Shown: piece by piece, positions 8,353-48,975 of the stretch | Layout: every line of letters begins with the position of its first letter | Numbering within the stretch: the stretch's first letter is position 1 | Assembly (NCBI GenBank): GCA_016722945.1 | Contig: JAEQMT010000037.1 | Coordinates: forward strand, 62,001 to 126,000 | Direction: 5' to 3' | Length of the DNA: 64,000 bases | From: Desulfofustis sp. PB-SRB1 | Lineage (GTDB): Bacteria > Desulfobacterota > Desulfobulbia > Desulfobulbales > Desulfocapsaceae | Translations under genes and position numbers: made by a program | Notes under the pieces: model-generated | The model's input: only the letters and a program-made list of their open reading frames with translations | Databases searched by the model: none | What the model was told of the DNA's origin: nothing

Positions 8353-8365
8353 GCACTAAATTGGG

Positions 8366-9016
8366 CTATCTCCTTTCATCCACCAGAACAATCAGCTCAC
8401 CTGGTTCAGACAACAGGTGATCAGGTTCCGCGTGTCGCAGTTCATGTTCTGAGCCAAATCCCCAGAGCACCCCGGCGGCGGACAACCGGGCCTTGCGGGC
8501 GGCGATAAGATCGGTTGCACGATCACCAATCAGCATGGCCCGTCGATCAATGAGTCCATCCTGCCGCAGGCGGGTAAGCCGCTCATCTTTGCCGAGGCCT
8601 CCATCGCCGCCGCTGATATATAAAAAATAGGTGTGCCAGCCAAACATGGTGACAATTTTCTCGGCAATATTTTTGGGTTTGGTCGTGCATATCCCCATCC
8701 CGCATCCACACCGTGAAAGCGTATCCAGCATGTGGTCGATCCCCTCATACACCCTGTTTCTCCGGTACCCGGTATCGTTGTAATCTTGGCGGTAAGCGGC
8801 AACACAGGAAGCGATCAGGCGATGATCGGTGGAACCAGTAAATAACCGGAACATATCGGCAAGAGGTGGGCCGATGTGGGGAATGACTTCGCTTATATCC
8901 AACGGATCAAGCCCATGCCTGGCAAGGGCATAGTTGATGGATTGAGTGATACCCGCACCCGGATCGCTCAGGGTTCCGTCGAGATCAAAAACAAGAGAGG
9001 ATATCGTCTTCGCCAT
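8366..9016 (-). CDS. HAD-family hydrolase, phosphoglycolate phosphatase-like
   Basis: 216 aa. HAD motif I is VFDLDGTLSD (nucleophile Asp11), motif II is CTTKPK with its Thr and Lys region, and motif IV is LIGDRATDLIAA. The helical cap between motifs I and II (about residues 18-85) is of the Gph/PgmB type. Such enzymes dephosphorylate phosphoglycolate, sugar phosphates or nucleotides. The gene is alone on this strand and diverges from the purine salvage genes; with those neighbours a nucleotide substrate would also be reasonable, but this is a guess. Confidence 0.88.
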   Translation of the reverse strand: MAKTISSLVFDLDGTLSDPGAGITQSINYALARHGLDPLDISEVIPHIGPPLADMFRLFTGSTDHRLIASCVAAYRQDYNDTGYRRNRVYEGIDHMLDTLSRCGCGMGICTTKPKNIAEKIVTMFGWHTYFLYISGGDGGLGKDERLTRLRQDGLIDRRAMLIGDRATDLIAARKARLSAAGVLWGFGSEHELRHAEPDHLLSEPGELIVLVDERR

Positions 9017-9186
9017 ATGAGTCGTGCCTGCTTACCCGAGTGTCGCCCAAGTGGACGGCGGGCACGGCAAGAGCATTGGAAAATCTTGTTGAGAAGGACG
9101 ATTACTTTTTGTAAATGACCTGAGACAATGCGGTTACGTACTGTTTCAACCCCACCTCGCCCACCTCAAAAGAGATTACCGCCATT

Positions 9187-10476
9187 ATGATCGAAAATCT
9201 TTTCCAACTCAAGGCCCACCACACCACCATCCGGCGGGAAGTGATTGCCGGTATCACCACATTTCTGACCATGGCCTACATCATCACCGTGAACCCGGCG
9301 ATTCTCGCCAATGCGGGTATGGACTTCGGCTCGGTGTTCGTCGCCACCTGCATCGCCGCCGCCTTGGGCACCGCCGTCATGGGACTGGCGGCCAATTATC
9401 CGGTAGCGCTGGCGCCGGGGATGGGCCTTAATGCCTTTTTCACCTTCGGGGTGGTGATCGGAATGGAGCAGAGCTGGCAGGTGGCTCTGGGCTGCGTATT
9501 CTGGTCCGGCTGTATCTTCTTTCTGCTCAGTATCTTCAAAGTGCGGGAATGGATCATCAATGCCATACCCGCCTCGCTCAAAACCGGCATTGCCGTGGGT
9601 ATCGGCCTATTTCTCGCGATTATCGGTTTGCAGGGCGCCGGGGTCGTGGTGGACAATCCCGCCACCCTGGTGGGGCTGGGCAATGTCAAAAGCGCCCAGG
9701 CTCTGCTTTTTTTCGGTGGTTTCGTCCTCATTGCCGCGCTCTATCGTCGACGGGTGGTGGGCTCGGTAATCATCGTCATCCTTACCACCACCATTATCGG
9801 CCTGTTGATCGGGCTGGTGGAATATAAGGGTATCGTCTCGCCACCGCCAAGCATTTCCCCCACCCTGTTTCAGCTCGACATCATGGGCGCCATCGAGGCC
9901 GGGTTGTTTGCGGTGATCTTCACCTATTTATTTGTGGATTTTTTCGACACCTCGGGCACTCTGATTGCGGTTGCCAAGGAAGGCAACCTGCTCGATGAAA
10001 AAAGACGCCTGCCACGCCTGGGCGGCGCCCTGATGGCCGACAGTCCGGCCAGGATCGCCGGCTCCCTGCTGGGCACCTCCACCACCACCTCGTACATCGA
10101 AAGCGGCGCCGGCATTGCCGCCGGTGGCAGAACCGGGTTGACCGCGCTGGTGGTGGCCCTGCTCTTTTTGTTATCGCTCTTTTTCGCGCCGCTGGCCCAG
10201 ATGATTCCCGCCTACGCCACCGCCTCCGCCCTGCTTTTTGTGGCGGTATTGATGATCAGTTCCATCGCCTCGGTGCAGTGGAACGACATCACCGAATCAG
10301 CGCCGGTGGTGGTTACCGCGGTGATGATGCCACTCTCCTATTCCATTGCCGAGGGTATCGCTCTTGGCTTCATCACCTACGTTTTGGTCAAGGTTCTGGC
10401 CGGCAGGTTTAACGAGATCAAACTCAGCGTGATCATCATCGCCGTCCTGGCCCTGCTGAAATTTTTCATCCTCTAA
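9187..10476 (+). CDS. NCS2-family purine permease (AzgA/PbuG type)
   Basis: 429 aa, about 12-14 membrane helices. The N-terminus (TIRREVIAGITTFLTMAYIITVNP) and the two half-sites GMGLNAFFTF and LFVDFFDTSGTLIAVA are typical of AzgA-like adenine/guanine/hypoxanthine transporters rather than UraA-like ones. Its stop is 11 bases before apt, which fits import of a free purine base followed by its conversion to a nucleotide. Confidence 0.93.
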   Translation: MIENLFQLKAHHTTIRREVIAGITTFLTMAYIITVNPAILANAGMDFGSVFVATCIAAALGTAVMGLAANYPVALAPGMGLNAFFTFGVVIGMEQSWQVALGCVFWSGCIFFLLSIFKVREWIINAIPASLKTGIAVGIGLFLAIIGLQGAGVVVDNPATLVGLGNVKSAQALLFFGGFVLIAALYRRRVVGSVIIVILTTTIIGLLIGLVEYKGIVSPPPSISPTLFQLDIMGAIEAGLFAVIFTYLFVDFFDTSGTLIAVAKEGNLLDEKRRLPRLGGALMADSPARIAGSLLGTSTTTSYIESGAGIAAGGRTGLTALVVALLFLLSLFFAPLAQMIPAYATASALLFVAVLMISSIASVQWNDITESAPVVVTAVMMPLSYSIAEGIALGFITYVLVKVLAGRFNEIKLSVIIIAVLALLKFFIL

Positions 10477-35200: not shown

Positions 35201-35494
35201 ATGACAGAAAAAAGGCGCAGGACCTACACCGCGGCATTCAAGGCAAAGGTTGGCTTGGAGGCGATCCGTGGGGTACAGACTACTAACGAAATTGCCCAGG
35301 CATACGGTGTCCATCCGGTGCAAGTCGGCCACTGGAAAAAGGCGATCACCGAACAAGCCGGGACACTGTTTGAAACCAAGCGGGGACGCAAAAAACGCGA
35401 CGAAGCCACTGAGCCGGATAGATTATACACGGAAATCGGCCGGTTGAACATGGAGCTGGACTGGTTGAAAAAAAAGTCCGGACTGAGCCGGTGA
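35201..35494 (+). CDS. IS3-family OrfA (helix-turn-helix protein)
   Basis: 97 aa. The first 55 residues are the IS3-type HTH (RTYTAAFKAKVGLEAIRGVQ, then NEIAQAYGVHPVQVGHWKK), and the end (LYTEIGRLNMELDWLKKKSG) is the leucine-zipper coiled coil used for dimerisation. It overlaps orfB by 4 bases (GTGA), where translation coupling or frameshifting would give the fused transposase. Confidence 0.9.
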   Translation: MTEKRRRTYTAAFKAKVGLEAIRGVQTTNEIAQAYGVHPVQVGHWKKAITEQAGTLFETKRGRKKRDEATEPDRLYTEIGRLNMELDWLKKKSGLSR

Positions 35495-36465
35495 GCGTTC
35501 GACAAACCTGGATAGAGCCTGCTCCAGCAGGCCAATCCTCAGCTCCATCGCTGAGTCGCCAGTGTGAACTGGCCGGAGTAACCCGCTCAGGGGTCTATCG
35601 GTGCTGGAAGGGTGACACTCCGGTCAGCGAGCTGGATCTGAAACTGCTGAGGTTAATTGATGCCGAGTACACCCGCCGCCCCTTTTACGGCAGCAGGAGA
35701 ATGGTCTTATCGTTACGTGATGCTGGGTATCAGGTCAACCGTAAACGGGTACAGCGTTTGATGAAGGTGCTCGGACTTGCCGGCATGCTGCCCGGACCTC
35801 ATACCAGTAAACCGCATCCCACCCATAAGATCTATCCTTACCTGCTGCGTGGTGTGGCCATTACTCGACCAGACCAGGTGTGGAGCGCCGATATCACCTA
35901 TATCCGGTTGGCCCGCGGGTTTGCCTATCTGGTGGCGATCATGGACTGGTACTCGCGTCGAGTCTTGGCCTGGCGGTTGTCCAATACACTTGATTCAGGT
36001 TTCTGTATCGACTGTCTGGAAGAGGCGCTCCGTACGTATAGTGCGCCGGAGATATTCAACACCGACCAGGGGGCTCAATTTACCAGTACGGCTTTTACGA
36101 AGGTACTCACGGATGCAAAGATTGCGATCAGCATGGATGGACGGGGCAGGGCATTGGATAATATTTTCGTCGAGCGGTTGTGGCGTAGCGTCAAATATGA
36201 GGATATTTACCTTAAGGGGTACGAGTTCTTTGCCGAGTTGTACCGTGGCCTCCGAGCGTATTTCACCTTTTATAACGATGAGCGGCCCCATCAGGCGTTG
36301 GGCTACCTTACGCCCGCATCAGTCTATCGAGCGGGCACGGGCGGGGGTGCGGAAATAAAGGATCATTTCAACACGGATAGCTCCGGTACCATTTCGGCTC
36401 CGCTTCGCTCCACCGAAATGGTACCGGAAAGAGGAACTGGGGCAGCGCTAATCCGCTGCGAATAA
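35491..36465 (+). CDS. IS3-family transposase OrfB (DDE integrase core)
   Basis: 324 aa, apparently intact. The catalytic triad is visible: Asp in QVWSADITYIR, Asp in FNTDQGAQFTS, Glu in LDNIFVERLWRSVKYED. The HTH_21 segment (LIDAEYTRRPFYGSRRM) precedes the core. The final 35 codons contain a 16-bp perfect inverted repeat (see 36382-36428), and the protein runs about 40 residues past the usual end of the domain. Confidence 0.92.
   Translation: MSVRQTWIEPAPAGQSSAPSLSRQCELAGVTRSGVYRCWKGDTPVSELDLKLLRLIDAEYTRRPFYGSRRMVLSLRDAGYQVNRKRVQRLMKVLGLAGMLPGPHTSKPHPTHKIYPYLLRGVAITRPDQVWSADITYIRLARGFAYLVAIMDWYSRRVLAWRLSNTLDSGFCIDCLEEALRTYSAPEIFNTDQGAQFTSTAFTKVLTDAKIAISMDGRGRALDNIFVERLWRSVKYEDIYLKGYEFFAELYRGLRAYFTFYNDERPHQALGYLTPASVYRAGTGGGAEIKDHFNTDSSGTISAPLRSTEMVPERGTGAALIRCE
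36382..36428. repeat. Perfect 16-bp inverted repeat in the 3' end of orfB
   Basis: Arms TCCGGTACCATTTCGG (36382-36397) and CCGAAATGGTACCGGA (36413-36428), with a 15-base spacer. It has no T-run, so it is not a standard terminator. It may form an mRNA or DNA hairpin near the right end of the insertion sequence. Confidence 0.85.
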
Positions 36466-36638: not shown

Positions 36639-37907
36639 ATGCCTGCTCCACCACGTATGTTGCTTACAAACTATAAATTAAGACGGTGCGGTGCCGGGTT
36701 GTGCTTTGCTTTCGCCATCATTGTTCAGACCTCGATAGCGCTGGCCCAGTTCGAGACCCCCGCCACCTACTCCGCCGCTTCACTGCTTGATAGTAAATTG
36801 TTGAAAGGCGCCTCTTTTGAAGTTCAAGATGAGGTGAAAAGCGACGGAATGTTCTACCACTTTACCGTCGACTCACCGTTCGGCACATTTGAGGCGTATT
36901 CCATGACCGCTCTGCGTCAGCTTGTTCATGAGATTGAGGTTATTGGCGCCATGAAGCAGGTCGCCACCGACGACGCAGCCATTGAATCACTCAAACAGTC
37001 GGGCAAAAACACGGTTGCCGGGGTGCGCAATTTGGTGGAAAAGCCGCGGGAAACCCTTGAAGGCGCCGCGGCCGGGGTCGGCAGCTTGTTTAACCGGGCG
37101 GCAGGCACCGTTGGTAAACGCAAGACCACCGATGCCGAAGACAACCGGGCACAACAGATTATCGGTTTTTCAAAGTCAAAAGGAGCCATTGCGACTCATT
37201 ACGGGGTAAACGTCTACTCCGGCAACCAGGTGCTCCAGGAGGAACTGGACCGGCTCGCCTGGGCCGACTATCTCGGCGGTCTCGGGGTGGGGGCAGTCGC
37301 AACCACCGTGCCGGGGCTTGGCGGTGCGGTACTAGCTACCTCAGGTACGGCGCGGCTGCTCAACGAAGTCATCAACACCACCCCGGCCGCCGAGTTGTGG
37401 CTGCAAAACAAAAACAAACTGCTTGCCATGGGCGTCCAAGAAGACACCGTGGAGTTATTTCTCAACAACCGGGTCTTTACACCTGCTCTGACAACGGTGA
37501 TGGTGGCGGCCCTGGAGCAGATGGAGTCGGTGGAAAACAGAGAGCTCTTCATTAAAATCGGCCTGCAGGCTAGTGACACCCGTATGGCCCGGGTTATTAC
37601 CTCCACCGTCGTAATGAGTGCCGGTTATCATCTCCATGTCAGCCCCCTTAGTCGGGTGACGCGCCTGGCCAGAATCAGCAAGGTTCATACGAAAGACGAT
37701 ACAACAGTCGTTGTTCTGCCTACAGATCATCTCATCTGGAGTGAACAGGTGGCAACTACCGCGCAGGCGCTCAGTGCGGAAACTCAAAACGGGATTCAAC
37801 TCTTTACGCTGGGCGATCTGAGCACGACTGCCATGGAAAATCTCAAGAAATTGGGCTGGCGGGTGCACACCGATGCCGGTACTGTATTGATGCCTTCCAG
37901 GCAATAG
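36639..37907 (+). CDS. Exported hypothetical protein
   Basis: 422 aa, family not recognised. AAGGAG precedes the ATG; a signal peptide (hydrophobic residues about 21-34, cleavage near ALA-QF) follows a basic start. The mature part has an amphipathic region around 95-160 (EKPRETLEGAAAGVGSLFNRAAG), a Gly-rich hydrophobic patch near 208-236 (LGGLGVGAVATTVPGLGG), and an alpha/beta-looking C-terminal half. It is bordered on both sides by copies of the dispersed repeat and is probably a single-gene transcript, so it may or may not belong to the operon that begins at 38294. Confidence 0.75.
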   Translation: MPAPPRMLLTNYKLRRCGAGLCFAFAIIVQTSIALAQFETPATYSAASLLDSKLLKGASFEVQDEVKSDGMFYHFTVDSPFGTFEAYSMTALRQLVHEIEVIGAMKQVATDDAAIESLKQSGKNTVAGVRNLVEKPRETLEGAAAGVGSLFNRAAGTVGKRKTTDAEDNRAQQIIGFSKSKGAIATHYGVNVYSGNQVLQEELDRLAWADYLGGLGVGAVATTVPGLGGAVLATSGTARLLNEVINTTPAAELWLQNKNKLLAMGVQEDTVELFLNNRVFTPALTTVMVAALEQMESVENRELFIKIGLQASDTRMARVITSTVVMSAGYHLHVSPLSRVTRLARISKVHTKDDTTVVVLPTDHLIWSEQVATTAQALSAETQNGIQLFTLGDLSTTAMENLKKLGWRVHTDAGTVLMPSRQ

Positions 37908-38293: not shown

Positions 38294-39046
38294 ATGTTAG
38301 TTCGCAGTATAGCTCTTGTTTTACTTATTGCGGCAATGGCTTCACTTGGATATGGAGCCGCCCCGACGGCAAGCGATTTGCGCTTCTCCATTGATGCCTT
38401 GACGCGGATTCGCGACTCCGCTGAAAAAAGTCTGGAGCAAACCATCAATACATCAGATCGCTTTGAGTCAATCCAATTTATCACCTTTCTATCCAGCCGC
38501 ATCCAGGCTGACTGCCGGGCCCTGATGCAGCTTGCGCCCGGCGCTATTGCCGGGCTGCCGTGCACTCCCGCCGTAATAAACAGCGCTGCGTCATATCCAG
38601 ACGCCATATCACAGGGCGAAAAGGTTGCCGATCTGGACAGCAGGCTTCGTGGTCAGTTACAGGATTTTGACGATATGCTCCTGGCTGAGCATGAATCAAT
38701 GGCGGCTACCGCCGGCAGCGGTGCAGGCAACAGCGGAGAGGGGGCCACGGGCGGTGAAACGGTTGCCCAGTCAACGCTGGAAGATGATCGCTCGGCACAA
38801 GGATCAACCGGGCAAAACGAGCAAAATGAGCAAAACGAGCCTGCCGCCTATCCCGGCCCCTGCCCCGATGGCCAGGAGTGCGGCCAAGACCTGCCGCCGC
38901 GGGTCGATGATGATCAGCTCGGCAAAGACGACGACATCGTTGCCCGTCAATTGCGCGAGGCGGCGGAGCAGGAGCGTGATCCTGAGCTAAAAGAAAAGCT
39001 CTGGGAAGAATATTACCGGTATAAAAACAGTGGCGCGGCTCAATGA
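38294..39046 (+). CDS. Exported hypothetical protein with acidic low-complexity tail
   Basis: 250 aa from the ATG at 38294, where a signal peptide (LVRSIALVLLIAAMASLGYGA) starts. The frame is open further upstream (TTG at 38228), but those bases belong to the dispersed repeat, so I reject that start; no good ribosome site supports either. Mature residues 20-120 look helical with two Cys (DCRAL, PCTPA); residues 140-195 are low complexity with NEQNEQNE; and the end is charged and helical (LREAAEQERDPELKEKLWEEYYRY). First gene of the VWA/TolQ-like operon; function unknown. Confidence 0.7.
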   Translation: MLVRSIALVLLIAAMASLGYGAAPTASDLRFSIDALTRIRDSAEKSLEQTINTSDRFESIQFITFLSSRIQADCRALMQLAPGAIAGLPCTPAVINSAASYPDAISQGEKVADLDSRLRGQLQDFDDMLLAEHESMAATAGSGAGNSGEGATGGETVAQSTLEDDRSAQGSTGQNEQNEQNEPAAYPGPCPDGQECGQDLPPRVDDDQLGKDDDIVARQLREAAEQERDPELKEKLWEEYYRYKNSGAAQ

Positions 39047-39065
39047 GGGTGCAGGATTGGAGCAC

Positions 39066-40334
39066 ATGAAAAGCATCACGGTGGGTATCCCACACGTTTC
39101 CATCATCGCCGCGGCAGCTACGATCGCACGATATTGTTCCGCCGTTGCGATGATAATCCTGCTGGTGTCCGGATGCGCCTCCGTGCCGGGTCGGCAGGTG
39201 GCCGACGCTGTTCGCCCGGAAATGGTGCCGAATGAGTTGCACCCGGACGAACTGCTTGACGTATCGATCGTGGTGTTCGACCCGGGCAAGCTGCCGGACG
39301 ATGAAGACGAAAGAATCGGCCTGTCGCCTGAGATCCGTGCCGCCGAAGCCCGCTTTGTCCCCACCCATCTCAAATATACCATGCAGCAATCAGGCTATTG
39401 GGGCACGGTGCGGGTGATTCCCCGCGCCGATGTGGGCAGCGATGTACTGGTCACCGGCAGGATCGATTACTCTGATGGAGAATCAATGGTTCTTACCATC
39501 GAGGCCTATGATTCCCGCGGCAGGCAATGGTTCAAAAAGGACTATGCGGAAACCTCAAAATCGCATGAACATACCGGGATCGAACCGCAGAAAACCGATG
39601 TGTTTCAGGACCTGTTCACCACCATTGCCAATGATCTCGTCGACGCCCGCAACCAGCTGCGCTACGATGAGATACGAAACATTAAACTGATCGCCCGGCA
39701 ACAATTCGCCTCCTCGATGGCGCCGGAAGCCTTTGCCGGCTATCTTGTAAAAGACGATCAGGGCTACTGGCAACTGGTGCGGTTACCGGCCGAAAATGAT
39801 CCGATGATGGAGCGGATCGAAGCAGTGCGCAGCCGTGACGACATGCTGGTGGATATCATCAACGGCCATTACGATGCCTACTACCGCGACCTGTGGCAGC
39901 CCTACTCCGAGTGGCGGCGTTCCCGCCGCGATGAGGTTGCGGCCATGCGTAAGCTGGAGCGCGAGGCATTGGGTAGGCAGCTACTGGGAATCGCCGCCAT
40001 CGTCGGTGGAATCGCGATCGGCATGGACAGCGACAATATCGACAGATCCGGCGTGTTGACCGATGTTCTGATCCTTGGCGGCGCCGCCGCGGTCTACAGC
40101 GGTTTTGAGAAACGCAAGGAAACGGAAATAAACAAGGATGTGATTGCCGAACTCGGCGAGTCGTTTCAGTCCGAGGCATCACCGTTGCTGCTTGAAGTCC
40201 AGGGTGAAACCATACGCCTTACCGGCACGGCGGAAGAAAGATATGGTCAGTGGAGAAAAATCCTGCGCGAGATCCATTTCCAGGAAACGGGGATGACTCC
40301 CGTAAGCCAAAGCGAACAAGTAACACCCCAATAG
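39066..40334 (+). CDS. Lipoprotein of unknown function, VWA/TolQ-like operon
   Basis: 422 aa from the ATG at 39066 (GGAG 6 bases upstream). Residues 27-38 hold a lipobox, ILLVSGC, so the mature protein should start at the Cys and be lipid-anchored. The body includes a beta-rich part (VRVIPRADVGSDVLVTGRIDYSDG) reminiscent of GNA1162/LpoB-like periplasmic lipoproteins, and a later hydrophobic Gly-rich stretch (LLGIAAIVGGIAIGMD) that may insert in a membrane. It follows the previous stop by 19 bases. No certain family assignment. Confidence 0.75.
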   Translation: MKSITVGIPHVSIIAAAATIARYCSAVAMIILLVSGCASVPGRQVADAVRPEMVPNELHPDELLDVSIVVFDPGKLPDDEDERIGLSPEIRAAEARFVPTHLKYTMQQSGYWGTVRVIPRADVGSDVLVTGRIDYSDGESMVLTIEAYDSRGRQWFKKDYAETSKSHEHTGIEPQKTDVFQDLFTTIANDLVDARNQLRYDEIRNIKLIARQQFASSMAPEAFAGYLVKDDQGYWQLVRLPAENDPMMERIEAVRSRDDMLVDIINGHYDAYYRDLWQPYSEWRRSRRDEVAAMRKLEREALGRQLLGIAAIVGGIAIGMDSDNIDRSGVLTDVLILGGAAAVYSGFEKRKETEINKDVIAELGESFQSEASPLLLEVQGETIRLTGTAEERYGQWRKILREIHFQETGMTPVSQSEQVTPQ

Positions 40335-40352
40335 TCGCTTCGCCATACGATC

Positions 40353-41801
40353 GTGCCCTCCCCTGTTCCATCACCTCCTGTTCTTACCCCACCGGGCTCC
40401 TCAGAGCCCATGGAGCCGCCCGGCCGCACCGGATGGCCGGTGCTGATCGTTCTTGTCCTGCTGGTTCTTGTTGGGGCGGTAGGCTGGCTTGTTTATCTGA
40501 CGATTAGCCCACCGCCCCAGCAACCGGTAACGGGTTTGGTGGAACCAGCACCGACACCCAGCCAGACCGGTGGGGCTGATGAATCAGAACCTTCCGACAA
40601 TAAGGAACTTGATGCATGGCTGCGCGTTCAGGCCCGGGCCCTTTCACTCAATACCGATGAGTGGGGTGATCCACGCCATGATTGGGCGGTCAGCACAGCA
40701 GCTGAAGCCGATGAGGCGTATCGGCGGGGATTGTACACCGATGGCGCCATTCTTTATAATCAGGCCGCCACCGCCATGGCATCACTTATCGCTGAGCGGG
40801 ACACCCTGCTGAACAATCGTCTTGCCAAAGCTCAGCAGGCACTTGGCCAGGAAGACGGCGCCGCCGCCACCTTGCTATTCACCCAGGCACTGGCCATTGA
40901 TCCGGACAATGAACAGGCAAAACGGGGAGCGGCCAGGGCCTCCGTGTTGGGCATGGTCGTCAGCCAATATAATGCGGCTCAAAATCTCGAGCAGTCAGGG
41001 GCACTCGCCGAGGCGGCTGAAGCATACCGCGCTATTATAGCCCTTGACCCATCCTACCAACCGGCCGCGGAGGGGTTTGCCCGAGTAAACGGGCAACTTA
41101 CCGAGATCCGCTTCCAGCAGGCTCTGGGCCTGGGGTTGCGCAGTCTCGAGAACAATCAGCTGGAACCGGCCGAAAACTACTTAAACGAAGCGGCCGCGCT
41201 GAATCCCGTCCACCCGGCTTTATCCCAGGCCCGTACCCAACTGACCATCGCTGCCCAGAAAGCCTCTTTGATTGCCGACAAAACCCGCGCTGAAAGTTAT
41301 GTCAAAACGGAACAGTGGCGCCGGGCGGGCGAGCTCTATGAACAAATACTCAGCACCACACCTGATCTGAGTTTTGCGCTGATCGGCAAAGAGATGGCAG
41401 CAACCCGGGCAACACTCGATGACGCCCTGCAAGATATTATCGAACGGTCGAACCGACTCAGCGATGAGACGGTACTTCGTTCCGCGCGTCTCGTGCTGTC
41501 CCAGGCGCAGGCAGTCAACAACCCCGGCCCGCGCCTGAAAGAACAGATTGCCCGCGCCGAAGCACTCATCCAGCAGGCCGGTGCCGAGGTGCGTGTTGTG
41601 CTGAGCTCAGATGGACTCACCACCGTGACCGTCTACCGTGTCGGTTCGCTCGGCACCTTCACCACTATGGAATTATCATTGCGGCCCGGAATATACACCA
41701 TGGTCGGCAGCCGTCCCGGTTACCGTGATGTCCGCCACCAGCTTCAGGTTACGCACGATAATGCAATCACCCTCGATATCCGCTGCCGGGAGAAAATTTG
41801 A
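40353..41801 (+). CDS. Membrane protein with TPR-like repeats and PEGA-like C-terminus
   Basis: 482 aa if started at GTG 40353; an ATG at 40410 (MEPPGRTGWP) is an alternative. A Pro-rich cytoplasmic tail leads to one membrane helix (about residues 28-51). Periplasmic residues 85-400 are helical repeats of TPR type (YRRGLYTDGAILYNQAATAM, QALGQEDGAAATLLFTQALAIDPDN, LAEAAEAYRAIIALDPSYQPA). The last 75 residues form a PEGA-like beta domain (LRPGIYTMVGSRPGYRD). It is coupled to the next gene by a 4-base overlap. I infer a scaffold that binds other parts of the machine. Confidence 0.8.
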   Translation: MPSPVPSPPVLTPPGSSEPMEPPGRTGWPVLIVLVLLVLVGAVGWLVYLTISPPPQQPVTGLVEPAPTPSQTGGADESEPSDNKELDAWLRVQARALSLNTDEWGDPRHDWAVSTAAEADEAYRRGLYTDGAILYNQAATAMASLIAERDTLLNNRLAKAQQALGQEDGAAATLLFTQALAIDPDNEQAKRGAARASVLGMVVSQYNAAQNLEQSGALAEAAEAYRAIIALDPSYQPAAEGFARVNGQLTEIRFQQALGLGLRSLENNQLEPAENYLNEAAALNPVHPALSQARTQLTIAAQKASLIADKTRAESYVKTEQWRRAGELYEQILSTTPDLSFALIGKEMAATRATLDDALQDIIERSNRLSDETVLRSARLVLSQAQAVNNPGPRLKEQIARAEALIQQAGAEVRVVLSSDGLTTVTVYRVGSLGTFTTMELSLRPGIYTMVGSRPGYRDVRHQLQVTHDNAITLDIRCREKI

Positions 41802-44182
41802 ACCGATTCATTGAGATACGAGGCCTTTCCACGGCCACCTTCAGAGAGCATGATCTGCCTTTGTCGATCGGCGGTGAGCATGGTGATCTCACCGTACCCG
41901 GCATTGATGATATCGTTGCCTATATTGGCGAGTCGGAAGGGTTTTTATTTCTCCAGCCGATTGTCCCGGGCTTGCCCGTCTTTGTGAATGATGAGTTGAT
42001 CGATGCATCCGTCTGGCTCAAATCTGGAGACATCTGCCGGGTCGGCAAAACAGCGTTCTATCTTACCCTGCGCGGAAACAGGACGATTATCGAACTAGTC
42101 ACGGTTGACGAGAAGCCGCTCGCTCCGTCAACCGCTCCACCACCCAAACCACCCCATACCGCCTCAACTGCTCTGCCCCGGGTCGAACCCTCTTCCATCA
42201 AACAAACGGCGCGCTATCGATTTCAGCTGGCGGTCTTTACCGTCCTTGCCCTGCTCGCCTCGGCAGCCCTGTTCCTGGTGGCCGGGGTCAAATTCACCGT
42301 GCGGATCGAGCCGCCGCCCGAGCATCTATCAATTCAGGGGTTTCCCCCGGTTATCGGAGTTGCCGAACATTTTTTCGCGATACCGGGAAAGTATAAGCTC
42401 AGCGCCGGCAAGGAGGGTTACCGGGAGCTTCGTGAAGAGATCACCGTGTCCCGTGATCAGCCGCTCTCTTTTTATTTCAGCATGGCAAAAAAACCGGCAA
42501 TCTTCACCATCAACTCATCGCCTCAGGGAGCAGCGGTATTTCTTAATGAAAACAAGATCGGCACCACCCCACTTGAGTCTGTGGAGATCGAGGCGGGCAG
42601 CCACCGGTTGGAACTTTCCCTGAGCGGTTATTTTCCCGTTAGGCAAACCATCTCCACCAATGCGATGGGTGAGCGTCGCGCCCTTGACTTTAACCTTACC
42701 TCCGCCATGGCGGAGATCACCATCACCAGTGTTCCCGCCTCCGCCTCGGTTACCATTGACGATGTGGTTGCAGGTGTTACCCCCTTTACCGCCCGGCTTG
42801 AGCAGGGCGAGCACATCGTCCGCCTTACCAGGGAGCAGTATCGTGAGCAGCGCATCGCCATTGAGGTGATCGCCGGCCAGAACCAGAGCCGGCAGGTGAA
42901 GCTGACCCCCAAACCGGCGCTGGTGCAGCTTACCAGCACACCGGCGGGTGCGCTGGCGCTGATTTGTGAGCGTTTTGTCGGAATCACCCCGGTTACCGTG
43001 GAGGTTGATCCCCGTGAAGCGGCAACATTGGTGCTCAGGCACAGCGGCTACAAGACCGAAGAACGTCGCCTCACCCTCACCCCGGACAGCCGTCATGAGG
43101 TAGATGTTGAACTTAAGAGAAAAACCGGAACGATTTTTATCTCAGGTTCACCGACGCAGACGAGGCTGAGGGTACAAAACACACTCGTTGATTTTTCAAG
43201 CGGCAAGATTTCTCTGCCGGTGGGCCGCCATGAACTGCTCTTTTCGGCGGACGGCTACCAGGAGCTGCGAAAACCGGTCACCGTACGCGATGATTTTCCC
43301 ATACAAATCACTTTTACCCTGACCAGACCCGGGCAGGTTGCCGAGCAAGATCTGAGCTCACATAAAAGCAGGGCGGCGCGGGAGGGTTTTATATTCGTGG
43401 AAAATGGCGCATTTATCATGGGGGCGGCACGTGGTGAAGCGGGTCGCCGGGCCAACGAGCAACAACGTTCCATCACCCTCACCAGAGCCTTTTATGTTTC
43501 ACAGCGCGAGGTGAGCAACAAGGAGTTTCGCCGCTTTCGGCCAAACCACGATTCCGGCCGGATCGCAGCCGAGCCCCTTGACGGCGACACCCAGCCGGCT
43601 GTCAATGTCAGTTGGGACGATGCTGCCCGTTACGCCAACTGGCGCAGCGTCCAGGAAAACCTGTCGCCGTTTTATCAGGAGGTAGAGGGCCGCATGATTG
43701 CGATCTCACCACCAACCGCGGGCTACCGACTGCCCACCGAGGCCGAATGGGAATACCTTGCCGCACATCTGGGCAGAGATGAACGGAACCGTTTCCCCTG
43801 GCCGGGAACTTTTCCTCCCCGGCAACCAAGCGGTAATTTTGCCGACGAGTCGGCGCGCCGGCTGCTCACTGTTATCATCAATGATTACCGGGACGGGTTT
43901 GCCGCTACCGCACCGGTGGGTAGTTTTTCCCCCAATAAAGCGGGGGCATTTGATCTGGGCGGCAATGTATCGGAGTGGTGTCACGACTACTATACCCCCT
44001 ATTTTCCGCCGGGCGAAACCGCCGCTACCGATCCGCTTGGTCCGCCGGACGGCCGCCATCACGTTATCCGCGACTCATCCTGGCGGGATGCAAACATAAC
44101 AGAACTTCGGCTCAGCTTCAGAGGCTACGGTATTGAAAAAAGTGACGATCTCGGCTTTCGCCTGGCCCGCTATGCGAACTAG
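41798..44182 (+). CDS. FHA-like / PEGA-repeat / FGE-fold membrane protein
   Basis: 794 aa, start TTG at 41798 overlapping the upstream stop. Order: an FHA-like beta domain in the cytoplasm (residues 1-100, ending GDICRVGKTAFYLTL), a Pro-rich linker, one membrane helix (about 142-163), four or five PEGA repeats (165-525; each has a PxGAxVxxxxxxxGxTP-like turn), and a formylglycine-generating-enzyme (SUMF1) fold at 530-794 (FVENGAFIMGA, YRLPTEAEWEY, FDLGGNVSEWCHDYY, LGFRLAR). The Cys pair needed for true FGE activity is not where expected, so a binding role is more likely. An FHA domain suggests control by Ser/Thr phosphorylation, but no kinase gene is visible. Confidence 0.85.
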   Translation: MNRFIEIRGLSTATFREHDLPLSIGGEHGDLTVPGIDDIVAYIGESEGFLFLQPIVPGLPVFVNDELIDASVWLKSGDICRVGKTAFYLTLRGNRTIIELVTVDEKPLAPSTAPPPKPPHTASTALPRVEPSSIKQTARYRFQLAVFTVLALLASAALFLVAGVKFTVRIEPPPEHLSIQGFPPVIGVAEHFFAIPGKYKLSAGKEGYRELREEITVSRDQPLSFYFSMAKKPAIFTINSSPQGAAVFLNENKIGTTPLESVEIEAGSHRLELSLSGYFPVRQTISTNAMGERRALDFNLTSAMAEITITSVPASASVTIDDVVAGVTPFTARLEQGEHIVRLTREQYREQRIAIEVIAGQNQSRQVKLTPKPALVQLTSTPAGALALICERFVGITPVTVEVDPREAATLVLRHSGYKTEERRLTLTPDSRHEVDVELKRKTGTIFISGSPTQTRLRVQNTLVDFSSGKISLPVGRHELLFSADGYQELRKPVTVRDDFPIQITFTLTRPGQVAEQDLSSHKSRAAREGFIFVENGAFIMGAARGEAGRRANEQQRSITLTRAFYVSQREVSNKEFRRFRPNHDSGRIAAEPLDGDTQPAVNVSWDDAARYANWRSVQENLSPFYQEVEGRMIAISPPTAGYRLPTEAEWEYLAAHLGRDERNRFPWPGTFPPRQPSGNFADESARRLLTVIINDYRDGFAATAPVGSFSPNKAGAFDLGGNVSEWCHDYYTPYFPPGETAATDPLGPPDGRHHVIRDSSWRDANITELRLSFRGYGIEKSDDLGFRLARYAN

Positions 44183-44411
44183 CCCACCGGCCTTCTTAGT
44201 TCTGGCGGTGCTGCTACAATTTTCCATGATAAACCCGCCGGCATCGGCGCAGCCGGTTACCACCCTGGAGCAATCCGTGACCGCTGAACCCCCCGCCGAA
44301 ACTGATCAGGGGCAGGGCGAGCAGACCGGAGCAGATGATAAGTATCAGCCGTTTGCCCCACGAGAAGAAATCTCCGCCGATACCATCATCGATTTCCCCG
44401 AGGATATCTGA
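44175..44411 (+). CDS. Small exported protein, VWA/TolQ-like operon
   Basis: 78 aa from the ATG at 44175, which overlaps the end of the FGE-fold gene by 8 bases; the frame is open further upstream but inside that gene. A signal peptide (PAFLVLAVLLQFSMINPPASA) precedes about 55 acidic, Gln-rich residues that end in the ordered-looking motif REEISADTIIDFPEDI. It is probably a periplasmic peptide that docks on a partner through its C-terminus. No homologue is known to me. Confidence 0.65.
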   Translation, partial: RTSPPAFLVLAVLLQFSMINPPASAQPVTTLEQSVTAEPPAETDQGQGEQTGADDKYQPFAPREEISADTIIDFPEDI

Positions 44412-44424
44412 GCTCAGATCCACC

Positions 44425-45243
44425 ATGAAACAACACCAACCACCCATTGAGCTGCTCTACCAGATTGTCTCCCTGCTCATCGCTTTTATTCTTGTACATG
44501 GCTTCTACGTCACCGTGGTACGGCCACAGGCCGAGTCGTTCCTGCAACAGGAACAGCTACTTATGGAACAAGACGACAGCCACGTCCGGCAGCGCAATTT
44601 CTTCGTGGTGGTAAAGGATTTTGAGCAGGAGGCCTGTTTGATTCTGATGCTCTGGGCCGGCGCCATCCTTGCCTACAAGGGAGAATCGGTGCGGCGTCAA
44701 CGACGCCTGCTGAACAACGATCTCTTACAGTTGCCGCCGGCGCTGCCCATCGGTCTCGAGGACACCGCCCAGTTGCAGGCCAGAATCACTGAGACCGCCG
44801 GCGGCAAAGGTCATTACCTGCTCCCCCGGGCGCTAGCCACCGCTATTCACCGTTTTGCCGCGACCGGAGATGTGCAGGACAGTGCCGCGGCGGTAGGTGA
44901 AATCTGCCAGGCCGAGGGGGAGCGGCTTGATGCCGAGTTATCCATCATTCGCTATGTGGCCTGGGCCATTCCGTCCATCGGTTTTATCGGCACCGTGCGC
45001 GGTATCAGTGCGGCGCTGGGCGAGGCGCATCTGGCGCTTAAGGGCGACATTACCAGCGTTGTCCAATACCTCGGGGTTGCCTTTAACTCCACCTTCATCG
45101 CCTTGATCATTTCCATCATCCTGATGTTTTTCGTTCATCAACTGCAACTTGCCCAGGAGCGACTGGTGCTGGATACCAGACAATACTGTAACCTCAATTT
45201 CATCAGCCGCCTGCGCAAACCGATTCACCAGCAACCGACATGA
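44425..45243 (+). CDS. MotA/TolQ/ExbB-type proton channel protein
   Basis: 272 aa from the ATG at 44425; an upstream in-frame start lies in the previous gene. Topology fits TolQ/ExbB: helix 1 near residues 8-30, another hydrophobic segment near 70-85 (CLILMLWAGAILAY), a large cytoplasmic part, then the two conserved pore helices: VAWAIPSIGFIGTVRGISAAL (about 180-200) and LGVAFNSTFIALIISIILMFFVHQL (about 215-240). Family members form pentamers around ExbD/TolR/MotB-type helices and let ions through to drive movement. The stop overlaps the first VWA gene by 4 bases (ATGA), which pairs the two products as channel and partner. Confidence 0.88.
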   Translation: MKQHQPPIELLYQIVSLLIAFILVHGFYVTVVRPQAESFLQQEQLLMEQDDSHVRQRNFFVVVKDFEQEACLILMLWAGAILAYKGESVRRQRRLLNNDLLQLPPALPIGLEDTAQLQARITETAGGKGHYLLPRALATAIHRFAATGDVQDSAAAVGEICQAEGERLDAELSIIRYVAWAIPSIGFIGTVRGISAALGEAHLALKGDITSVVQYLGVAFNSTFIALIISIILMFFVHQLQLAQERLVLDTRQYCNLNFISRLRKPIHQQPT

Positions 45244-46328
45244 ACGTGAAACGCCGGAGTTTTTCTTTATTCAACCTGTCGTTTATCGACATCATGTTCT
45301 GCGGGTTCGGCGCCGTCGTTCTGCTGGTGCTGATCATCAATGCCAGCGAACGCACGGAAAACACCAGCCGACAGGTTGCCAACCGTGACCACGCCGCCCG
45401 CCTGCGGCTCGAGCTTGAGACGGCGGCTGAACTGCGCGCCGAATTGCAGGAACAGCTGCGCTCAGCGCGCCTGCAACGTGCCACGGAGGAAGATAAACTA
45501 CTCGCACTTGCAAGAGAAATTGATTCCCGGCAGGCTGACTTCGACACCCTGCGGCAGCGAAATCAGCGGGAAAAAGAAGATCTGAGCCGACTGCAGCATG
45601 AGCTAGTTGCCCTGGATACGGAAAAACAGCAGCGCCTTGCCGACATGCGGCAGAGAGATGATGAACAACCACGCACCCTCCAATTTGTCGGTGAGGGCAA
45701 CCGGCAGTACCTGACCGGGCTTAAACTTGACGGTGATCACGTCCTCATTCTGCTTGACAGCTCCGCCAGCATGCTCGATCAGCGCATCGTCGATATCATT
45801 ATTCGCCGCAACCTCAAAGATGGCGCCAAGACCGACGCACCGAAGTGGCGGCGCGCTTTACGCACCGTTAACTGGCTGCTGGCCAATATCTCACCGGACA
45901 GCAATGTTCAAGTGATGACTTTTAATGAGGTGCCCGTTCCCGTCTTACCTGATGGATGGATCGCCGTTAGCGACACCGAGGCACTGCTTGCCCTGCTTCG
46001 CGCCCTGCGGACAGTGGTGCCGGAGGGCCCCACCAGCCTGATCAACGTCTTTGCCGCGGCAGCCGCCCTGCAGCCCCCACCCGACAATATCATTCTTATT
46101 ACCGACGGACTTCCCACCATCAGTGCGGCGCCCACCGGCCGGGCGAAGGTAAGCGGGAGCAGGCGGGTAAGGCTGTTCAGCGACGCCATCGCCGAGATTC
46201 CACCGGACATAGCGGTCAATATCATACTATTTCCGCTGGAGGGCGATCCGCTGGCCGCGGCTTCCTACTGGCAACTCGCCATTGCAACCGGCGGCTCGCT
46301 GTTTACCCCCACCAGCGACTGGCCATAA
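45240..46328 (+). CDS. Membrane-anchored VWA protein with ExbD/TolR-like helix (1)
   Basis: 362 aa. A basic N-terminus and one helix, NLSFIDIMFCGFGAVVLLVL (residues 12-31), with Asp17 placed as in the ExbD/TolR helix (family pattern FIDVM). Residues 38-145 are a long coiled coil. The periplasmic part is a VWA domain: MIDAS motif DSSAS at residues 173-177 (VLILLDSSASML), GPTSLINVFAAAA with the metal Thr, and ILITDGLPT. It overlaps the channel gene by 4 bases. I infer that it is the partner subunit of the channel, with a VWA head in place of the usual peptidoglycan- or receptor-binding domain. Confidence 0.85.
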   Translation: MNVKRRSFSLFNLSFIDIMFCGFGAVVLLVLIINASERTENTSRQVANRDHAARLRLELETAAELRAELQEQLRSARLQRATEEDKLLALAREIDSRQADFDTLRQRNQREKEDLSRLQHELVALDTEKQQRLADMRQRDDEQPRTLQFVGEGNRQYLTGLKLDGDHVLILLDSSASMLDQRIVDIIIRRNLKDGAKTDAPKWRRALRTVNWLLANISPDSNVQVMTFNEVPVPVLPDGWIAVSDTEALLALLRALRTVVPEGPTSLINVFAAAAALQPPPDNIILITDGLPTISAAPTGRAKVSGSRRVRLFSDAIAEIPPDIAVNIILFPLEGDPLAAASYWQLAIATGGSLFTPTSDWP

Positions 46329-46367
46329 TTTATCACAACCCTGACAGATTATCAGTCACAATAACCG

Positions 46368-47372
46368 GTGCACCAATTGAGTAGACGCAGAAGCGCCACC
46401 GACGTGTTCAGCCTTGCCTTCCTCGACGTGGTGTCCTGCGGGTTTGGTGCTATCATCATCTTGCTGATCATCTCGCAGACCTCGGAACCACGTGGGCCGG
46501 AAGACCGGATCGCCGATTTTTCCACTGAAATTACCCGCACTCAGCGTGAGCTGGATGCGATACGAGACGAAATTGGCGAGTTGCGCCAACTCGTCGACGG
46601 TGAGCAACGCGAAACATTCACCCTGCGCGAAGAGAAGCAGACATTACAGCAAAGGTTCGCACACACGGAGGATGCCATCGATGATACAGCATTAGAGCTG
46701 ACCGCCACCACCCGTCTCAGCCAGAACCTGGCCATGGTAAAACAGAGCCTGAGCGAGGAGATGCGCCGTCTTCAGGCGGTGGTGGAACAGCCGTGGGTTG
46801 AAGAGAGCCCCATCGGCGGCATCCCGGTTGATTCAGAATACATCATTTTTATCATCGACACTTCCGGTTCCATGCAATCCAGGGCCTGGCCGGCGGTGCA
46901 GCAAAAAATGGATGAGGTCCTTGCCATCTACCCGCGGGTCAAAGGCATACAGGTTCTCAACGATATGGGCCGTTACCTCTTTTCCCAATACGAAGGCCGC
47001 TGGATCCCCGACTCCCCGGCCAGACGAAAGGCCATTCTCAAACGGCTTGCCGGCTGGAGACCGTTTTCCAATTCCAGTCCGGTGGAGGGCATCACCGCCG
47101 CCATCAAAACATTCTACCGGCCGGACCGGACCATCAGCCTCTACGTATTCGGCGATGATTTTTCTTCCGGTTCCATCCAGGAAGTTGTCGAGACCGTTGA
47201 GCGGCTCAACTCATTGACCGATGATGGAAGAAAACGGGTGCGGGTTCACACGGTGGGCTTTCCGGTTCATTTTTCCCCGGAGCCAAGCCCAAACGCGGTT
47301 CGCTTTGCGGCCCTGATGCGACGTCTGGCGGAAGACAACAACGGCAGTTTCGTGGGGCTCTCCGACCTTTAA
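46368..47372 (+). CDS. Membrane-anchored VWA protein with ExbD/TolR-like helix (2)
   Basis: 334 aa, GTG start at 46368, 39 bases after the first VWA gene. Same plan as that protein: a basic start, the helix SLAFLDVVSCGFGAIIILLI (residues 15-34) with Asp20, a coiled coil (about 48-140), then VWA with MIDAS DTSGS at 164-168 (FIIDTSGSM) and VFGDDFSSGS near 265. The shared helix pattern F-(I/L)-D-(I/V)-x2-CGFGA shows that the two are paralogues and may form the hetero-dimer that sits in a pentameric channel. Last gene of the operon. Confidence 0.85.
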   Translation: MHQLSRRRSATDVFSLAFLDVVSCGFGAIIILLIISQTSEPRGPEDRIADFSTEITRTQRELDAIRDEIGELRQLVDGEQRETFTLREEKQTLQQRFAHTEDAIDDTALELTATTRLSQNLAMVKQSLSEEMRRLQAVVEQPWVEESPIGGIPVDSEYIIFIIDTSGSMQSRAWPAVQQKMDEVLAIYPRVKGIQVLNDMGRYLFSQYEGRWIPDSPARRKAILKRLAGWRPFSNSSPVEGITAAIKTFYRPDRTISLYVFGDDFSSGSIQEVVETVERLNSLTDDGRKRVRVHTVGFPVHFSPEPSPNAVRFAALMRRLAEDNNGSFVGLSDL

Positions 47373-47536: not shown

Positions 47537-48487
47537 ATGGAACAACTTGTCTTTGACTACGTTTTCACCGTACCCGTCGCGCTACTGATCTTTGTGCTGT
47601 TTCTGATTAGGTCGGCCATAAAATTCGTCCCCCAAAACCGCGCCTTTGTTATAGAGCGGTTCGGTAAATTCAACAAAACAATTGAGGCAGGCCTCAATTT
47701 CATCGTCCCGTTCATCGATCGGGTAGCCCATGACCGCTCGCTCAAAGAGCAGGCGGTGGATGTGCCCAGTCAGGGCGCCATTACCAAGGACAACATTTCC
47801 CTGACCGTTGACGGAGTTTTGTATTTCCGCGTGCTGGACCCTTACAAGGCATCGTACGGGGTTGAAGACTATACCTTCGCGGTAACCCAACTGGCCCAGA
47901 CCACCATGCGCTCGGAAATCGGTAAAATAGAGTTGGATAAAACCTTTGAGGAACGAGACCAACTCAACGTCAACATCGTCAACTCCATAAATCAAGCCGC
48001 CGAGCCTTGGGGTGTCCAGGTACTGCGGTACGAGATCAAAGATATTGTCCCGCCCCAGTCGGTAATGTCGGCCATGGAGGCGCAGATGCGGGCGGAACGG
48101 GAAAAGCGGGCCCGCATCCTCGAATCGGAGGGCCAGCGCCAGGCGGAAATAAATCAGGCAGAGGGTGAAAAGCAGGCCAGGGTGCTGGCCGCCGAAGCCG
48201 AAAAGGAGCAACAGATTCTCACCGCCGAAGGCGAAGCGACGGCCATTCTGCGGGTTGCCGAAGCCCAAGCCGAAGCCCTCGCCATGGTAGGGGCGGTGGC
48301 TATTACCGGCGAAGGACTGGCTGCCGTTCAGTTGGATCTGGCCACCAAGGCCATCGCCGCCAAGGAGGCCATTGCCAAGGAAAGTTCGGTGGTGCTGCTG
48401 CCGGACAGCGCCACGGAGGCGGCCTCCATCGTCGCCCAGGCCATGGCGGTGGTGGACACCTTCAAAAGCGTTACACCGGCTGCCTGA
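47537..48487 (+). CDS. SPFH/Band 7 (stomatin/QmcA-like) membrane protein
   Basis: 316 aa. One N-terminal membrane helix (about residues 8-27), then the SPFH domain starting IKFVPQNRAFVIERFGKFNKTIEAGLNFIVPFIDRV, and a long Ala/Glu-rich coiled coil (about 180-260, EKRARILESEGQRQAEINQAEGE in short blocks). The family forms large ring cages on the inner membrane. AGAGGAG precedes the start. The NfeD gene follows by 2 bases, the usual pairing. Confidence 0.94.
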   Translation: MEQLVFDYVFTVPVALLIFVLFLIRSAIKFVPQNRAFVIERFGKFNKTIEAGLNFIVPFIDRVAHDRSLKEQAVDVPSQGAITKDNISLTVDGVLYFRVLDPYKASYGVEDYTFAVTQLAQTTMRSEIGKIELDKTFEERDQLNVNIVNSINQAAEPWGVQVLRYEIKDIVPPQSVMSAMEAQMRAEREKRARILESEGQRQAEINQAEGEKQARVLAAEAEKEQQILTAEGEATAILRVAEAQAEALAMVGAVAITGEGLAAVQLDLATKAIAAKEAIAKESSVVLLPDSATEAASIVAQAMAVVDTFKSVTPAA

Positions 48488-48489
48488 TC

Positions 48490-48975
48490 ATGGATGGTTT
48501 AATCTCATACCCCTACGCTCTGATCATCATCGGGATCGTCTTGATCACCCTGGAGGCGGTGGTGTTCGGTTTTGCCACCCTGTTTTTGATCTTTATCGGT
48601 CTTGGCTGTTTCACCACCGCGTTACTGATGTGGATCGGCATTCTCGATTCCACCTTTCTGGCAGCGGCGGCCTCGGTAAGCATAGCTACGTTCGTGTATG
48701 CCGTATTACTCTGGAAGCCGCTGCACAGGTTGCAAAACAAGCAACAGGATCCGACCCGGCAGACCAACACACTGGATGGTTTGAGCTTTCGCCTGCCCGA
48801 ACCGCTCAGCATTACTAATCCAATCAGCTACCGCTACTCCGGTGTTTCATGGCAGGTGTTACTGGAATCCGGTCACACTCAGGAACTGCCGGCCGGCGCC
48901 GAAGTGGAAGTGTACCGGACCGAAGTTGGCAAACTGTTCGTTATGCCAAGAAAAAAGGAGAACAATAACGGGTGA
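48490..48975 (+). CDS. NfeD family protein (YbbJ type)
   Basis: 161 aa. Three membrane helices (about residues 8-75) are followed by the small NfeD OB-fold (about 95-160), ending with VEVYRTEVGKLFVMPRKK. The short form without protease domain pairs with QmcA-like SPFH proteins, as seen here with the gene immediately upstream. It probably caps or stabilises the SPFH ring. Confidence 0.93.
   Translation: MDGLISYPYALIIIGIVLITLEAVVFGFATLFLIFIGLGCFTTALLMWIGILDSTFLAAAASVSIATFVYAVLLWKPLHRLQNKQQDPTRQTNTLDGLSFRLPEPLSITNPISYRYSGVSWQVLLESGHTQELPAGAEVEVYRTEVGKLFVMPRKKENNNG

Follow-up and report, generated by a model that had tools for sequence, protein, structure and literature searches.

Flagella, gliding, iron uptake, type IX secretion and the upkeep of the outer membrane all draw on ion-driven motors of the 5:2 type; type IX secretion has a PorL/GldL-GldM motor and a PorK/GldK ring. 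Two published descriptions are closest to the locus considered here. The passages of PMC12204202 (Mol Biol Evol 2025, msaf138) that deal with this gene family predict that a tolQ gene lying beside heterologous TPH-vWA pairs, without tolR/exbD, encodes a motor, and the AF3 model presented there of tolQ with the paired vWA proteins puts Asp residues within the Thr ring. In the Agl-Glt system of Myxococcus xanthus, as set out in the protein descriptions of PMC3169522, AglR is the TolQ homolog, AglQ and AglS are two TolR proteins, GltG combines an FHA domain, a transmembrane (TM) segment and a TonB match, and exported TPR proteins complete the set. Here we analyse a window of 64,000 nucleotides from Desulfofustis sp. 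PB-SRB1 (the whole stretch under study: assembly GCA_016722945.1, contig JAEQMT010000037.1, positions 62,001 to 126,000 of the forward strand) and, within it, an operon of eight genes, termed A to H (Table 1), whose gene set, order, conservation, motifs and folds were established by calculation. The eight genes form a real, conserved and largely uncharacterised machine; this machine is likely to cross the envelope and to be powered by an ion-driven, apparently proton-driven, rotary motor of the 5:2 type, with a heterodimeric axle made of G and H, two different adhesion-type (VWA) proteins.

At its core, the locus corresponds to the published prediction. The window channel F adjoins a heterologous pair of TM-anchored VWA proteins, G and H; no tolR or exbD lies beside it, the ExbD genes of the genome being elsewhere; and an ExbD-like pore helix with a conserved Asp goes together with conserved channel Thr residues, here at the level of sequence. 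An earlier sequence-only reading of this DNA, which knew of no characterised system with this set, was therefore mistaken insofar as a channel with a heterologous VWA pair had already been predicted (PMC12204202). The two descriptions differ in the company kept by the core. PEGA, FGE, formylglycine and Hsp70 are absent from the main text of that paper, although a figure could show such neighbours, and in its family section no lipoprotein, TPR, FHA or small exported protein is given as a partner, the TPR gene mentioned there belonging to the other vWA family. A search of the open-licence PubMed Central literature, with preprints outside its scope, gave no relevant description of the accessory gene set. 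The motor core is a published prediction, and the full parts list and the FHA/Hsp70 exchange described below were not found in print. New here are the TolB/PelC/CsgG-type domain of B, the degenerate FHA and Cys-less FGE domains of D, the near-invariant ends of A and E, and a branch of loci with an additional gene, X.

The operon is conserved well beyond its source genome. H was matched in 16 of 97 genomes (the source genome and 96 relatives), and besides the source 11 of these matches were better than 1e-60. By tblastn, genes A, B, C, D, F, G and H were found in window order in nine of 14 stretches from relatives and in part in the other five, most of which stop at a contig edge; E was recovered in four of the 14. 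When the contigs of named genomes were scanned with the H alignment, at least 584 related loci were obtained, and the best 80 of these were kept; all locus counts given below refer to these best 80 of at least 584. G lies beside H in 80/80, and the complete set A, B, C, D, F, G, H occurs in 45, in the same order and on one strand in all 45. Indeed, 40 of the 41 loci where H starts at least 9.5 kb into the locus are complete, the exception being L067. F precedes G in 67 loci by profile and L068 shows the tail of F; the loci that remain without F comprise four in which X is followed by the contig end, seven with fewer than 50 bases upstream, and L089. The 80 loci include Desulfobulbaceae, Desulfuromonadales, Geothermobacter and many Gammaproteobacteria, with named isolates of Seongchinamella, Kineobactrum, Sediminihaliea and Geothermobacter; no Idiomarina locus is among them, and single contigs of metagenome-assembled genomes labelled Planctomycetota and Kiritimatiellia may be binning errors. 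In one locus (L045, genome G027, 7495-10282), G and H are split into several open frames, which may reflect a decaying system or assembly errors.

Co-occurrence was also apparent within the class. Of 257 genomes, including the source genome, 37 have B, 42 match the VWA profile and 35 have both, the shared count being tallied by eye from the two lists; the Fisher p-value of 9e-34 is a guide only, because the genomes are related and some matches are doubtful. Two of the 42 VWA genomes (G005 and G095) are weak, doubted matches, and one of the two B-only genomes (G011) has a weak match. Across the phylum B is rare, with six of 297 sampled genomes (own counted). Because the gene order recurs in distant bacteria, the operon is not a product of chance. 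The sequence-only reading would have been refuted had the genes failed to co-occur outside this strain, or had channel and VWA genes always paired with other partners of known function; neither is the case, as the genes travel together widely. Its view of an operon-like unit of envelope proteins is supported.

We next consider the motor core. F matches the Pfam family MotA_ExbB at 8e-13, over the cut-off, as expected from its earlier assignment to the TolQ/ExbB class. Its residues T191 and T224 are invariant (66/66 sequences) and align with the Thr of the GTV and ATA/TTA motifs in the genome's two other TolQ/ExbB proteins, which we take to be the pore threonines. The window G and H proteins both begin with a short basic stretch, followed by a helix that reads FxDxxxCGFGA. 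Its Asp (Asp17 in G, Asp20 in H) is invariant in 75/75 G and 81/81 H sequences, counting the window and those of the 80 loci long enough, and so is the DxSxS metal motif in the same 75 and 81; moreover, both ExbD proteins of the genome have an Asp that lines up with Asp17 and Asp20. This genome, which is 97.6% complete, has three MotA_ExbB and two ExbD matches, and each of its two ExbD genes adjoins one of the two other channels, the window channel alone having no ExbD beside it; Pfam likewise detected no ExbD (PF02472) in nine window proteins. Therefore, G and H most simply fill the place of ExbD. Compared with the ExbBD, TolQR and MotAB motors, the locus has the MotA_ExbB channel subunit and lacks the PF02472 subunit, with VWA proteins in its place. 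From these alignments, G and H are probably the axle of the F channel, replacing ExbD/TolR. The view that they are paralogous anchored VWA proteins stands, and they are probably this axle and not merely heads beside the channel.

F also matches ZorA models weakly (NCBIfam 0.005; PADLOC 0.0016 and 0.0031), as it would if the operon were an anti-phage system of the Zorya type with a ZorA-like channel as sensor. However, the ZorA match scores 15.8 bits against an NCBIfam cut-off of 500, no other Zorya model was matched in PADLOC among seven proteins (B, C, D, F, G, H and one X), and PADLOC and PHROGs returned just weak or coiled-coil matches. Most products look exported or membrane-bound, H has no match in the plasmid collection searched, and the gene set is uniform over distant bacteria. 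A defence role is thus highly improbable.

The other two channels of the genome bear on a second alternative. One channel/ExbD pair sits in a Tol-like cluster with TonB_2, PD40 propeller and TPR genes, and the other adjoins a TonB_C protein and Peripla_BP_2 proteins; the ExbB/ExbD section of PMC6851124 describes an ordinary set with no bearing on the operon. The lipoprotein B carries a lipobox Cys that is invariant in 44 alignment rows and is followed by Ala in the window. According to the +2 rule, the residue after the lipobox Cys directs lipoprotein sorting, and Ala there suggests that B is at the outer membrane, as the earlier reading had proposed for the lipoprotein. In the predicted model of B (pLDDT 84.9), a domain spanning about residues 55-203 resembles TolB-N, PelC, CsgG, FlgT and PqiC. 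The best Foldseek match, and the sole one at E<=0.001, was TolB (4r40, E 7.3e-4, prob 1.0), and Z-scores reached 12.8 for FlgT, 12.1 for PelC (2.7 Å over 116 residues), 11.4 for TolB and 10.3 for CsgG; TM-scores to TolB, normalised on the whole model, are low (0.15-0.19) because just one domain matches. B shares its fold with the PelC/CsgG/FlgT/PqiC lipoproteins (Z 10-12.8) and differs from them by an added long helical hairpin and C-terminal part and by the lack of detectable sequence similarity: its sequence had no PDB profile match better than 0.32, and Pfam gave just two chance-level matches.

Together with the TolQ-class channel, the fold of B would suit a third Tol/Ton-like system, in which the motor drives B and outer-membrane contacts to keep the outer membrane stable, in the manner of TolQRA-TolB-Pal. 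In 12 loci, all with X, one upstream gene family adjoins A and points the same way, the one member tested having a TonB_C match. However, the eight window proteins have no TolR and, by Pfam, no beta-propeller and no OmpA/Pal domain, so that both the TolB propeller and Pal are missing from the likeness to Tol-Pal, and the distribution is patchy (B in 37/257 class genomes). Moreover, the separate cluster of tolQ-like, exbD/tolR-like, TonB_2, PD40 propeller and TPR genes means that the operon need not replace Tol. We therefore regard a role of this kind as unlikely. Outright replacement of Tol-Pal was rejected in view of that cluster. The TolB_N family had no match in the genome, although the Tol-like cluster includes a PD40 propeller gene.

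The most complex protein of the set is D, described beforehand as an FHA/PEGA/FGE membrane protein and found to have all of these parts. Pfam detected PEGA (4.4e-48) and FGE (4.3e-40) but no FHA. In a PDB profile search, the only three matches at E<=1 (0.03, 0.08 and 0.1) were EmbR and two Ki-67 entries, the aligned stretch of EmbR being presumably its FHA domain. In the predicted model (mean pLDDT 80.0, pTM 0.40), residues 1-93 superimpose on the FHA domain of Ki67 with a Z-score of 10.5 (88 aligned residues, 2.3 Å) and on GarA with 10.3. Canonical FHA domains bind phosphopeptide through an Arg after 'IG' and an SRxH motif. Neither was seen in a 24-row alignment of D N-termini, and it is therefore doubtful that this domain is a phospho-switch, the kind of role in which it had been proposed as a cytoplasmic switch. 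The FGE part gave a best Z-score of 24.2 and matched PorK with 22.4 (phmmer 3e-14). The catalytic cysteine pair of FGE is C336/C341 in the human enzyme; the window protein has Asp opposite C336 and no Cys in the catalytic-pair stretch, and an enzymatic role of this domain is less likely than one in binding. By their sequences, both the FHA and the FGE domains of D look like binding modules.

The PorK match gives the operon a likeness to type IX secretion, where an FGE-fold envelope partner also stands beside a 5:2 motor. PorK is a lipoprotein, whereas D spans the membrane and carries FHA and PEGA domains, and the two were compared through the FGE part only. The FHA domain raises another possibility, a surface-movement or polymer-assembly machine working like the Agl-Glt core. 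Similar roles recur in the protein descriptions of PMC3169522: a TolQ-like channel with two different D-type (TolR) subunits, an FHA-TM-periplasmic protein, and TPR and other envelope partners. However, AglQ and AglS are PF02472 proteins, GltG has a TonB match where D has PEGA and FGE, and the Agl-Glt set, as described there, has no VWA axle pair; conversely, neither a PF02472 subunit nor TonB_C was detected by Pfam in the window set. The two systems were likened by roles and not by sequence comparison with Glt proteins, and the operon would be an analogue and not a member. Because ExbD-type subunits are absent here, it was not filed with Agl-Glt; nor was it assigned to type IX secretion, to which the comparison extended through the FGE part. 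Such a function is possible, though on balance doubtful; by analogy, the Agl-Glt core and type IX secretion may serve as the nearest working models.

The control side of the machine appears to vary between branches. A ninth gene, X, stands before G in 25 of the 80 loci (between L087 and L129, e.g. L112:7584-8879); neither the window nor any of the 14 relative loci contains a match to it. A profile of eight X proteins matched Hsp70 (1.1e-4) and the FHA domain of Rad53/SPK1 (2.1e-3) in the PDB; in five X proteins scanned with Pfam, FHA was over the cut-off in one (3.3e-8) and sub-threshold in a second, with no Hsp70 match. Judged by eye, the C-terminal part of X is short or eroded in several members. 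In X-bearing loci where D is not cut by a contig edge, D has 680-720 residues in 19/20, and the seven short D proteins whose N-termini were read begin without the FHA part; loss of the FHA domain is thus taken from length (19/20) and seven N-termini and not from folds. The exception, L087, has X plus a long D of 809 residues. In loci without X, D spans 751-826 residues, except in L055 (split) and L067 (shortened). A 66-row tree built from F, G and H by a quick method, in which the window sits on a long branch (0.74), requires a single change for the X state; the count covers loci with F, G and H only, and L110, L123 and L126 were labelled before tblastn confirmation. The upstream family adjoining A was found in L106, L111-L116, L118, L120, L121, L126 and L127. 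The member tested (L114) matched TonB_C over the cut-off (1.1e-5), with a weak TPR match, and an extra force transducer is possible. In 11 X loci (e.g. L125:3345-4166), a family read by eye as a predicted lipoprotein overlaps or adjoins the end of H; the one member tested has no Pfam family.

The smaller exported proteins are recognised by their ends. Both A patterns, A.QLRE.A and LW.EY, are present in 46/46 named loci with an A match, within a C-terminal motif of 30-odd residues. E was matched 51 times in 60 loci with D and F; all 51 matches have P at position -4 and I at -1, and 50/51 have D at -2 and F at -5. A search by rule instead, requiring I as the last residue and P close to it, gave an open reading frame in 59/60 loci, with one additional wrong frame in L063. 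C, thought to be a TPR/PEGA protein, was confirmed in its first half: TPR_2 is over the cut-off (2.3e-6, 27.7 bits, cut-off 27) and PEGA is a weak match below it (0.043).

All together, an ion-driven machine, the model first put forward from the sequence, stands as the likeliest one, and we infer its assembly, stoichiometry, ion coupling, ligand, outer-membrane end and function as follows. Five F subunits would form the channel ring and enclose a heterodimeric axle, made of a single helix each from G and H, where an ExbD/TolR dimer usually sits. The invariant Asp residues of G and H would take the ion, ion flow would turn or cock the axle, and the coiled coils would pass this motion to two periplasmic VWA heads, which may grip and release acidic ligands through their metal site. 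As ligands, the nearest candidates would be the acidic peptides conserved at the C-termini of A and E; alternatively, the FGE-fold head of D could offer such sites. B would be the outer-membrane end, and C and D inner-membrane scaffolds, with the FHA domain of D, or Hsp70-like X in one branch, on the side of cytoplasmic control or docking. The most likely output would be force exerted at the outer membrane, serving a surface polymer or an envelope process and not essential housekeeping. A more specific version, in which the ion-switched, metal-dependent heads of the hetero-VWA axle reversibly grip the A/E peptides and pull the B assembly, gated from the cytoplasm by an exchangeable FHA domain (of D or X), is a tentative idea that we hold to be rather improbable.

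Several points weigh against a G-H motor of this kind. VWA_2 in G scores 8.9e-6 and 26.7 bits, just under the 27-bit cut-off, and VWA in H scores 9.5e-4, also below its cut-off, so the VWA calls rest on weak Pfam matches and the invariant DxSxS. PDB profile searches found no relative of F at E<=0.01, mostly coiled coils for G (best 0.01) and a designed coiled coil as the best match for H (2.4e-4), with no motor or VWA relative for G or H; the link to ExbB/ExbD hence comes from Pfam in the case of F and from aligned motifs in the case of G and H. L067, with more than 9.5 kb upstream, lacks A to C, and its D is shortened. In L089, no F was found in the 946 bases preceding the G-H pair, and an opposite-strand gene adjoins. 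The E count leans towards the end motif, because its profile was built from four sequences sharing that end. The five-to-one-to-one arrangement and the A/E ligand are proposals, and no phenotype, expression or localisation data were found for the operon. Neither L089 nor the eroded FHA domain of X has any bearing on the motor core in the window. The opposite-strand gene of L089 (L089:1-2038) reads by eye like GMP synthase.

Table 1. Genes of the operon, with positions in the window. F is numbered from 44422.
Gene	Position	Strand	Features
A, exported protein	38294-39046	+	Signal-like N-terminus (by eye); variable linker; near-invariant C-terminal motif DDDIVARQLREAAEQERDPELKEKLWEEYYRYK
B, lipoprotein	39066-40334	+	TolB-N/PelC/CsgG-type domain, then long helical hairpin
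C, TPR protein	40353-41801	+	N-terminal TM anchor (by eye); TPR repeats; weak PEGA-like C-terminus
D	41798-44182	+	Degenerate FHA 1-93; TM helix 143-162; five PEGA stretches; FGE-fold about 523-793
E, small exported protein	44172-44411	+	C-terminal end EEISADTIIDFPEDI; FPxDI end conserved
F, TolQ/ExbB/MotA-class channel subunit	44425-45243	+	T191, T224 invariant
G (VWA1)	45240-46328	+	ExbD-like TM helix with Asp17; coiled coil; VWA with DSSAS metal motif
H (VWA2)	46368-47372	+	ExbD-like TM helix with Asp20; coiled coil; VWA with DTSGS metal motif

As read from the sequence beforehand, the eight genes run in one direction with overlaps or gaps of less than 40 bases: from A to H, the junctions are +19, +18, -4, -11, +13, -4 and +39 bases, lengths and coordinates depending on the start codons chosen in the analysis. 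Promoter and terminator scans exceeded the shuffled expectation only a little (7 vs 5.0 and 15 vs 10.5, respectively) and are uninformative. Two overlapping open reading frames upstream (35201-36465) look by eye like an IS3-type transposase pair and are followed by a gene for an exported-looking protein of 422 residues with no Pfam family (36639-37907); directly downstream lies a pair of SPFH/stomatin-like and NfeD-like genes, also assigned by eye (47537-48975). The 422-residue protein and the SPFH/NfeD-like pair were rejected as parts of the system: tblastn at 1e-3 did not detect them in the 14 relative loci, of which several stop close to the operon.

The branch with Hsp70-like X, which has an FHA domain in some members, offers a natural experiment on motor control, D having lost its own FHA domain there. 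With eight genes in a fixed order, named isolates that carry them and clear point mutations to make, the function of the operon is testable. If the proposed motor is correct, the operon would add a further widespread user of the 5:2 engine, in which the axle is of another kind and the partners are fully listed.

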